A stretch of DNA of 64,000 nucleotides from NCBI GenBank assembly GCA_035628995.1, contig DASPIR010000028.1:1-64000 (forward strand), given 5' to 3'. The first letter of the stretch is position 1. Each line of letters opens with the position of its first letter. Below the pieces are notes generated by a model. The model was not told where the DNA came from. It did no database searches and was given only the letters and a program-made list of their open reading frames with translations. The DNA comes from Clostridia bacterium. Its GTDB lineage: Bacteria > Bacillota > Clostridia > Lutisporales > Lutisporaceae. Positions 59,332 through 63,056 of the stretch are shown one piece after another. The translations under genes and the position numbers were made by a program.

Positions 59332-59383
59332 TAATAAAAAAAGAAACATCATATTGCCATATTGGCTCTATGATGCTTCTTAA
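59332..59383 (-). terminator. intrinsic terminator after the WG-repeat gene
   Basis: Minus-strand AAGAAGCATCATA / TATGATGTTTCTT around a 15-base loop, followed by TTTTTATT. Confidence 0.8.
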
Positions 59384-59420: not shown

Positions 59421-61556
59421 CTATTTTTTATACTCTCTTGGATCCCAGATAAAAGTGCCGCTTTTATATATATAGCCTTTGCCATATGGCGTCTCAGGAG
59501 CAACTCCATATGTATCCAGATATACTTCTGCCATTCCGTCCTTAAAACTATCTGCCTGCCCGAACTGGGGGCTTATTATGATGTTGCCATTTTTATCAGC
59601 ATAACCCTCTCTGTACAAGGTTGTCTTACTATTTTTACTTTCATACACCAGTCCTAGCCTTACAGATATCATACCTTCGCTATAGCTTCCTACATCTTTA
59701 AACTGTGGCTCGCACAGCACCTTACCGGATTTATCAATTAACCCCCATTTGTCATTACTCTTTATTCCAGCAATTCCCTCACTGAAATACTTTACATCCT
59801 CATAAAGTGGTTCTACAACTACCTTACCAGTCTTATCGACAAATCCCCATTTACCGTTCTTTTTGACTGGTGCCATCCCATCGACAAAATATCTGGCATC
59901 CTCATACTGTATTGAAGTAACCTGCTTTCCATTCTTATCTATGAAGCCCCACTTTTCACCTGTCTCTACAGCTGCCAAGCCTTCATAAAACCAAAGTGCC
60001 TTTTCATATGCCGGCTGAACAACTATCTTTCCGGTTTTATCTATATAGCCCCATTTGCCATTTAGTTTTATTGCTGCCAAGTCTCCGCTAAATCCGTCCG
60101 CATCTTCGAAACCCGGATTTATTATATATTTACCGCTAATATCAATATAACCGGCTTTGCCTTCACTCTTAACCACAGCTAAGCCATATCTGAGAAATGC
60201 TTGGTTATCAAATTTTATCTCTGTGACCTGCTTACCGGTCTTGTCAATATATCCCCATTTTTCTCCAAGCTTTACATTTGCAAGCCCACCAACAAAATAG
60301 TATGTCAAATCATATTTAAAGTCTATAACCACATTACCTTTACTGTCAATATAACCCCATTTATTATCCTTCTTAACAGCGCCTAACCCCTCATAGAACA
60401 TATATGACCCATCATATTGAGGCTCAACCACTAATTTCCCGCTTTTATCCATAAAGCCATATTTATGGTTTAAAGAAATGCCATACAGCTTTTCTTCGGC
60501 GCTTACATTTGGGCCAACTGGTTTATCAACACTATTCCATACGACATTCCCTTTTTTATCTATATATCCCCAAAATGTATCCCCACTATCCTCAATAAAT
60601 GCCAAGCCTCCATGGAAGGGAGCGATGTATTCGAAAGTATATTTAATGACTGCATTGCCAGCCTTATCAATAGCTCCCCATTTGCCATTTAGTTTTAACG
60701 TAGCCAAACCTTCCGAAAAAGGATACACTTGGTCATAAACGGGCTTTATCTTGACAGTACCAGTCTTATCAATATACCCCCATTTGCCATCGGACAATAT
60801 TGCTGCATATCCTTCACTAAAGGATTCTGCAAGTGAGAATTGGGGAGTTATTATAAACTTGCCTGTCTTATCTATATACCCCCACTTCCCATTAGAATAT
60901 ACCGCAGCCAAACCTTCCGAAAAATTCTTCGCTTCCTCAAACTGAAGTTTTATTGCTACTTTTCCTGTTTTATCTATATATACGTATTTATTGTCTATTT
61001 CGACTTTTGCCAAACCTTCCGAAAAAGAAAAGTCCCCAGGCCACTCAGCCTTTACCACCAATTTTCCACTTTTATCTACTGCTCCCCATTTGCCGTTTAC
61101 TTCAACAGCAGCCAATCCATCAGAGAAATAAGTATAAGATTCATAGTAATCGCAATATGCCATTATTTTACCGGATTTATCGATATGCCCATATTTATCT
61201 CCCATTCTAACAATGGACACACCGTCATAAAAGCCTTGAACATGAGTAAACTGTGGTCTGATTGCCATTTCACCCTTTGCATTTATAAATCCCCATTTAC
61301 CGTCTACATTAACAGGGGCAAGTCCCTCTGAGAAATCATATGCACTGCTGTATTGCGGATACACAACTGCTTTTCCCTCTTGATTTATGAATCCGTACCT
61401 ATCATTTTCTATAATTAAGGTTAGCATGTCATTATTCACCTGGCTTGTGTTTAAACCACTTGCACTGCTATTGTCTGAAGCAAATACTCCAATAGAATTT
61501 TGAAATGCCATAATCACCATGATAATTACTGCAGATAACAATGTTAGTTTCTTCAT
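59421..61556 (-). CDS. secreted WG-repeat protein under c-di-GMP riboswitch control
   Basis: 711 residues. Signal peptide in the first 25-30 residues (hydrophobic LLSAVIIMVIMAF). The rest is about 17-19 repeats of roughly 35 residues with the pattern KWGYIDKTGK, then P-F/Y and FSEGLAAV. WG-repeat proteins form open solenoids or propellers and are often surface-located; their roles are poorly known. No anchor or LPXTG was seen at the C-terminus. The ATG at 61556 lies 9 bases after GAGGAG. A c-di-GMP-I riboswitch with terminator lies in the 200-base leader, so expression depends on the sessile/motile signal. Confidence 0.9.
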   Translation of the reverse strand: MKKLTLLSAVIIMVIMAFQNSIGVFASDNSSASGLNTSQVNNDMLTLIIENDRYGFINQEGKAVVYPQYSSAYDFSEGLAPVNVDGKWGFINAKGEMAIRPQFTHVQGFYDGVSIVRMGDKYGHIDKSGKIMAYCDYYESYTYFSDGLAAVEVNGKWGAVDKSGKLVVKAEWPGDFSFSEGLAKVEIDNKYVYIDKTGKVAIKLQFEEAKNFSEGLAAVYSNGKWGYIDKTGKFIITPQFSLAESFSEGYAAILSDGKWGYIDKTGTVKIKPVYDQVYPFSEGLATLKLNGKWGAIDKAGNAVIKYTFEYIAPFHGGLAFIEDSGDTFWGYIDKKGNVVWNSVDKPVGPNVSAEEKLYGISLNHKYGFMDKSGKLVVEPQYDGSYMFYEGLGAVKKDNKWGYIDSKGNVVIDFKYDLTYYFVGGLANVKLGEKWGYIDKTGKQVTEIKFDNQAFLRYGLAVVKSEGKAGYIDISGKYIINPGFEDADGFSGDLAAIKLNGKWGYIDKTGKIVVQPAYEKALWFYEGLAAVETGEKWGFIDKNGKQVTSIQYEDARYFVDGMAPVKKNGKWGFVDKTGKVVVEPLYEDVKYFSEGIAGIKSNDKWGLIDKSGKVLCEPQFKDVGSYSEGMISVRLGLVYESKNSKTTLYREGYADKNGNIIISPQFGQADSFKDGMAEVYLDTYGVAPETPYGKGYIYKSGTFIWDPREYKK

Positions 61557-61627
61557 TTGTATCATCTCCTCGAATAATTAGTACAGGTATCGTATACCTG
61601 GGTTCAGTCTGCCGAATGGCATTGAAA

Positions 61628-61758
61628 TATAAAAACCATGCCTTAAAGACATGGTTGCATGCATGTATTCTTTCGGCAACCCGGCTGTCTTGGCTTTTGC
61701 TTTAGACCCGTGGCTTTGTGTCCTTGTCTTTCGACAAGTTTACCTTTTCTATTGATGG
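61628..61758 (-). promoter_or_regulatory. c-di-GMP-I (GEMM-I) riboswitch with intrinsic terminator
   Basis: Minus strand. The aptamer (61668-61758) has GGTAAAC, P2 CTTGTC-GAAA-GACAAG with its GNRA loop, GGACACAAAGCCACGGGTCT, and GACAGCCGGGTTGCC. These are the GEMM-I conserved blocks, including the tetraloop receptor. Downstream AACCATG / CATGGTT (61634-61656) followed by TTTAT is a terminator. GGTTGC of the aptamer (61676-61681) can pair with GCAACC (61653-61658) at the terminator foot, so the aptamer and antiterminator exclude each other; ligand binding would favour termination. Confidence 0.9.
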
Positions 61759-61910
61759 CTAATATCCCTTTAAGTTCCTGTATATTTTACCATAGTATTC
61801 CAACTCATATTTAATATTTTACCAAATATTCGATAAATTGCAAGTAAAATCGACAGATATAGCAAGAGTCAGACACCTCACAACAACCCCGTATCCACTA
61901 TACTCAGTGC

Positions 61911-62270: not shown

Positions 62271-63056
62271 TTACTGCATATTAACAGAATACTCTACCTG
62301 TATTGGAACTTTAATCTCTACACGATTTGCATATGCTTTCTTAAGTGTAGCAATGAAATCGCCGTGTGCATCTTTAAGGCTCATAGTTGCTCCAGATACT
62401 ACATCAGCAAGTACTGCCTTTTCTGCTGCAGTAAGCTTTTCATACTTTGCTTTGTCTTCTGGTTTTGTTGTTTCTGCCGGAACCCTCAGAGGACGTCCGT
62501 TAAGGTCTGAAGTGTTCTTAGCAGCCCACTGCTCTAATTCTGCAACAGTCTTGCCAACAAAGAAATTCTGATAGAAGTCAGCCTGCTTATGCCAATCATT
62601 AGTTGCGTTCATGCCGTAAGCATCACCACGTTCACGTTTTGTCTTCCATCCAGTAACTTCAGCTGCTATAGTTTCGTTAGTGTTGGTGGATACACCGGTT
62701 ACTTTTGAATTATCTCCTTCATGACTTGATACATTGTATCCTGGTGTTGCAGGCCAGCCGGAGAAGTGAGGCATGCTCGCGCCGTCATAGTTCGGAGTTG
62801 AAACTTCTAAAGAATCGAAAATAACATTGACTACTCTTCCGTCCGCATCAAATATTGCGTTTGCCATTACTGTAGTCATAGTATAAACCTGTACTCCATT
62901 AGCATCTTTTCCAGGTCCTACACGAAATGCCGGAACCATGGCAAACCCTTGATAAGCTTTAGCAGTAACTGGAGCTACCAAGCTGCTGGCATCTGCTACA
63001 ACTGCCAGTGCCATAACCAAAACCAGGACGATAGATAACACTTTTAACTTTTTCAC
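62271..63056 (-). CDS. secreted FMN-binding-like protein with flavinylation motif
   Basis: 261 residues, GTG start after AAAGGGGG. Signal peptide in the first 23 residues (LSIVLVLVMALAVVADA). The C-terminal half has DVVSGATMS, matching the D-x-x-(S/T)-G-A-T-x-(S/T) site where ApbE links FMN covalently (as in NqrC, RnfG and extracellular flavoproteins). The middle has the conserved TTVMANAIFDADGRVVNV pattern of FMN-binding domains. Likely an extracellular electron-transfer or redox protein. No ApbE gene is in the window. Confidence 0.75.
   Translation of the reverse strand: MKKLKVLSIVLVLVMALAVVADASSLVAPVTAKAYQGFAMVPAFRVGPGKDANGVQVYTMTTVMANAIFDADGRVVNVIFDSLEVSTPNYDGASMPHFSGWPATPGYNVSSHEGDNSKVTGVSTNTNETIAAEVTGWKTKRERGDAYGMNATNDWHKQADFYQNFFVGKTVAELEQWAAKNTSDLNGRPLRVPAETTKPEDKAKYEKLTAAEKAVLADVVSGATMSLKDAHGDFIATLKKAYANRVEIKVPIQVEYSVNMQ

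Follow-up and report, generated by a model that had tools for sequence, protein, structure and literature searches.

Within the window, which is the whole 64,000-nucleotide stretch of DNA that was analysed, only one Rfam family was matched above its gathering threshold when all 64 kb were searched (cmscan, Rfam 15), and this was RF01051, the c-di-GMP-I (GEMM-I) riboswitch. The match lies on the minus strand, upstream of a gene for a WG-repeat protein. The parts of the leader and the gene are as follows, in the direction of transcription.

61843-61816, minus strand: candidate promoter TTGCAA-16-TGgTAAAAT, from a consensus scan (consensus match only)
ending at 61784, minus strand: alternative candidate promoter, a second extended -10, TATGGTAAAAT, from sequence reading (consensus match only); the two candidates together span 61784..61843
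61672..61754, minus strand: c-di-GMP-I (GEMM-I) riboswitch aptamer, Rfam RF01051, 86.5 bits, E 1.1e-15
61676..61681, minus strand: aptamer 3' strand GGUUGC, which includes the C92 equivalent; from growing-transcript and constrained folds and the comparative permutation
61653..61658, minus strand: GCAACC, proposed antiterminator partner, overlapping the terminator 5' arm; from growing-transcript and constrained folds
61634..61656, minus strand: intrinsic terminator, AACCATGTCTTTAAGGCATGGTT then TTTATATTT, present in the MFE structure once its 3' arm emerges
61610..61616, minus strand: UUCGGCA, past the terminator, complementary to the aptamer 3' end UGCCGAA
61584..61600, minus strand: hairpin CAGGUAUACGAUACCUG, between the terminator and the ribosome-binding site and with no U-run after it; from folding and direct reading
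61566..61571, minus strand: ribosome-binding site GAGGAG, 9 nt before the ATG at 61556, by direct reading
59421..61556, minus strand: 711-aa protein with a signal-peptide-like N-terminus (MKKLTLLSAVIIMVIMAFQNSIGVFA/SD) and 17 WG repeats (PF14903; AlphaFold2 model)
59341..59381, minus strand: terminator-like hairpin AAGAAGCATCATA...TATGATGTTTCTT with a T run, after the WG gene, by direct reading

The original prediction had placed a c-di-GMP-I riboswitch at 61628-61758, a span that takes in both aptamer and terminator, and its identity was borne out by the RF01051 match, which covers the whole aptamer (model 1-87, full length) at 86.5 bits against a gathering cut-off of 35. Within the clostridial sample described below it ranks with the higher scores. 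The first stem closes with U-A (GGU...GACAC) in place of C-G, a compensatory change that is shared by the closest aptamer found (G011:C98, 88% identical). The high score and the compensatory stem change suggest selection on the aptamer. In our own alignment to Vc2, the equivalents of G20 and C92 are a G (in GGUAAAC) and a C (after GGGUUG).

A genome-wide search yielded three GEMM-I RNAs, the one in the window and two sister switches. One of these (C33:45814-45897, L180) precedes an HD-GYP-like protein and the other (C29:74918-74998) an exported stalk-domain-like protein, both named from reading the sequence rather than from a family scan. RF01786 (c-di-GMP-II) was not matched in this genome, but control genomes gave no match either. 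The riboswitch is of an ordinary, well-known kind, and the controlled gene alone is unusual.

Because the WG gene is followed by a terminator of its own, it is probably monocistronic and the riboswitch probably has no other target; the mannitol-type PTS genes that lie beyond this terminator are separate. Upstream of the riboswitch leader is an exported-looking 261-aa open reading frame (62271-63056, minus strand), for which Pfam and NCBIfam gave no match and which ends in a strong terminator of its own (62257-62214).

The WG-repeat protein and its distribution

The predicted target, a WG-repeat protein of 711 residues, was confirmed from the ATG at 61556; the mechanical open reading frame is three codons longer (714 aa). 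PF14903 (WG_beta_rep) was matched in 17 stretches with 586 bits, against a gathering threshold of 25.6, and the tandem repeats are of ~34 residues with the core K-W-G-(Y/F)-I-D-K-(T/S)-G. The N-terminus has a charged start, a hydrophobic core and a VFA/SD site, as seen on inspection and with a crude hydropathy rule. It looks like a Sec signal peptide, and the protein is predicted to be secreted. The same rule was passed by 51 of the 105 distinct open reading frames downstream of GEMM-I RNAs, and it also catches membrane and some cytoplasmic proteins. This riboswitch often has an exported target.

The AlphaFold2 model, for which 18 sequences were used, is an all-beta repeat array in two blocks; its mean pLDDT is 78.7 and most repeats exceed 85. 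Structure comparison gave many middling matches to propellers, the best with a Z of 10.0 to a designed propeller at an rmsd of 8.8. The model thus suggests a propeller-like arrangement, and because these matches are only middling no function was drawn from it. PDB chains gave no sequence match to the protein. WG-repeat proteins are widespread, and we know of no function assigned to them. No description of a WG-repeat target behind a c-di-GMP riboswitch was found in the literature, in which subscription journals were thinly covered. The genome holds a second WG-repeat protein (G000:C12:2732-3868, L179), a 580-aa open frame with no GEMM-I RNA.

The pairing of riboswitch and WG gene was sought in relatives at several depths. 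No match to the WG protein of the window was obtained in the genus's other five genomes, several of which are incomplete, and a search of 22 genomes of the family found no other WG gene with a GEMM-I RNA before it. Among 132 clostridial leaders WG motifs occurred downstream of one, that of the window. Twenty loci, most of which carry WG relatives in Firmicutes or in other phyla, gave no Rfam match. One locus (G015:C166) has both a GEMM-I RNA and a WG gene, but the RNA lies downstream of the gene and the candidate was rejected. As judged from these sequences the pairing looks lineage-specific and one-off, a familiar switch before an unusual gene. Since it was not found in the relatives examined, they provide no comparative evidence for its role.

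Folding of the leader and comparison with other leaders

The terminator begins 15 nt beyond the aptamer, with no overlap between the two. In growing-transcript folds the aptamer formed first, the pairing GGUUGC:GCAACC was in the MFE structure at 61650-61640, and the terminator appeared after its 3' arm had been made. When each state was enforced by constraint, the terminator gave -34.7 and the antiterminator -33.1 kcal/mol; the two are near-isoenergetic, which fits the need of a switch that is tipped by its ligand. Aptamer and terminator fold together at -34.2 kcal/mol and can therefore coexist. In this leader alone the antiterminator energy was not above chance, as 748 of 2000 dinucleotide shuffles were as good, and its perfect 6-nt word was marginal, 129 of 2000 shuffles having one at least as long.

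As the antiterminator was not significant in the window alone, a comparison of multiple leaders was made. A total of 132 GEMM-I leaders, drawn from the family of the host and a class sample of 243 genomes, were examined; these are mostly high-scoring matches and not a random draw. Permutation was performed on the 77 non-redundant leaders that have a terminator-like hairpin within 110 nt. Pairing of a leader's own terminator 5' arm with its aptamer 3' strand had a mean of -10.85 kcal/mol, against -9.59 (sd 0.22) when swapped (n=77), and none of 5000 permutations reached the observed pairing, with related leaders counted as independent. Four other leader segments gave no signal in the same permutation test (z between -0.2 and 0.8). 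The antiterminator design is general across these leaders. The terminator/antiterminator layout that had been drawn for this locus is therefore supported by the folds and by the 77-leader comparison, the pairing being not significant in the window by itself.

An ON-type design, in which the terminator 5' arm lies inside the aptamer 3' end, was found in nine of the 132 leaders, and the window is not among them. In four of the ON-type leaders (G016:C33:3761-3846, G017:C413:3814-3899, G005:C78:58-143 and G005:C41:1075-1160) the aptamer 3' strand also serves as the terminator 5' arm, and both senses of control therefore occur within one family. The contrast agrees with that published for Cd1 and pilM (PMC9262584). 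The comparison yields a simple sequence rule by which OFF and ON class I c-di-GMP switches of Clostridia can be told apart.

Two further groups of leaders were observed. Six short-P3 GEMM-I aptamers (L164, L166, L167, L168, L176 and L184), often in tandem, end at a ribosome-binding site and stand before a gene for an exported protein of ~262 aa; their control looks translational rather than transcriptional. A GEMM-I RNA before an HD-GYP-like gene (G014:C8:410190-410273, L183) has a terminator 5' arm, UUCGGC, that complements the aptamer 3' end GCCGAA. This is a clear OFF design, and as the HD-GYP-like product is presumed to degrade c-di-GMP the feedback would be positive, not negative.

In the window, the sequence UGCCGAA (61678-61672) can form a perfect 7-nt pairing with UUCGGCA (61616-61610), and 38 of 2000 shuffles of the region gave a word at least as long. 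It is possible that this is a post-readthrough structure.

Sense of regulation and alternative readings

The element before the WG gene is very probably a class I c-di-GMP riboswitch that turns transcription OFF in the manner of Cd1. At low c-di-GMP, the 3' strand GGUUGC, with its ligand-contacting C, would be released from the aptamer to base-pair with GCAACC, which lies at the terminator's foot, and polymerase would continue into the gene. When c-di-GMP is high, the ligand-bound aptamer would retain GGUUGC, the terminator AACCAUG...CAUGGUU-U would form and transcription would end before the gene. The exported WG-repeat protein would then be made mainly at low c-di-GMP. The prediction that the switch is off at high c-di-GMP is supported by the Cd1-like layout and by the leader permutation, together with the description of the class I switches of C. 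difficile as OFF switches, from which we infer the sense of regulation here; one exception, a gene that rose with c-di-GMP, was seen by RNA-seq in that species (PMC6200980). Short, prematurely terminated transcripts have been seen in C. difficile (PMC3649979).

It is very improbable that the switch has the opposite sense, in which c-di-GMP binding would increase readthrough by letting AGCCAU of the 5' leader pair with the terminator 3' arm. This pairing is the MFE structure of the full-length 155-nt transcript (-36.0 kcal/mol), and ON designs do occur among the clostridial leaders. However, it requires the U-tract side of the terminator, bases that would still be within polymerase at the pause, and it leaves the ligand-contacting C paired elsewhere; it was set aside for these reasons and is probably irrelevant at the decision point. 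Furthermore, the terminator 5' arm of an ON design such as pilM is the aptamer 3' strand, whereas the terminator of the window lies 15 nt downstream.

It is similarly improbable that the leader has decayed, with an intact aptamer, a platform that is no longer coupled to ligand and constitutive partial termination. Such decay would agree with an antiterminator that is not above chance in this leader and with the failure to find the WG pairing in relatives, but the signs of selection on the aptamer argue against it. Least probable is an aptamer that senses 3',3'-cGAMP or has relaxed specificity. Riboswitches for cGAMP have the same GEMM-I fold and initially carried a c-di-GMP annotation, but the G20 equivalent here is a G, cGAMP binding being modelled with a G20A substitution (PMC6274999), and the genome encodes nine GGDEF and three EAL domains and has a sister switch before an HD-GYP-like gene.

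With the OFF switch as the preferred reading, a link of the WG protein to the motile-sessile transition, as originally proposed, is plausible given the two flagellin-type genes and the GGDEF and EAL domains of the genome, and has no comparative support in relatives. A more specific proposal is a tentative one that we consider unlikely: the exported, propeller-like WG protein would be a surface or extracellular factor of the planktonic phase that is directly repressed by c-di-GMP, with UGCCGAA:UUCGGCA as a further layer of control, and a WG-repeat protein would thereby be placed in a signalling circuit. The riboswitch gives a testable condition for production of the WG protein, namely low c-di-GMP.

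Comparison with known systems

The nearest counterpart in design is Cd1 (Cdi-1-3), which precedes the flgB flagellar operon of Clostridioides difficile. Both have a GEMM-I aptamer with a separate terminator just downstream and little or no P1 helix, and the antiterminator of Cd1, formed from the aptamer 3' strand and the terminator 5' side, has a proposed counterpart in the window. In Cd1 the terminator is T+H, the antiterminator uses T+A, and aptamer and terminator can coexist; in the pilM ON switch the aptamer 3' strand doubles as the terminator 5' arm (PMC9262584). Cd1 is an OFF switch, as is predicted for the window, but it controls flagella, whereas the switch described here precedes a WG-repeat protein that appears to be exported.

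Cdi-1-12 (zmpI, C. difficile) resembles the proposed reading in that a GEMM-I OFF switch yields an exported protein at low c-di-GMP. Its target is a metalloprotease with known substrates, while the WG protein has no known activity. Within the same GTDB family, the leader at G011:C98:5453-5535 shares the 88% identical aptamer with its U-A pair, a terminator directly downstream and an exported target, and differs in its terminator sequence and in the exported protein that it precedes. The protein of the window has the same ~34-residue repeats as other WG_beta_rep proteins (PF14903), and among the genomes checked it is the one such protein found behind a GEMM-I RNA.
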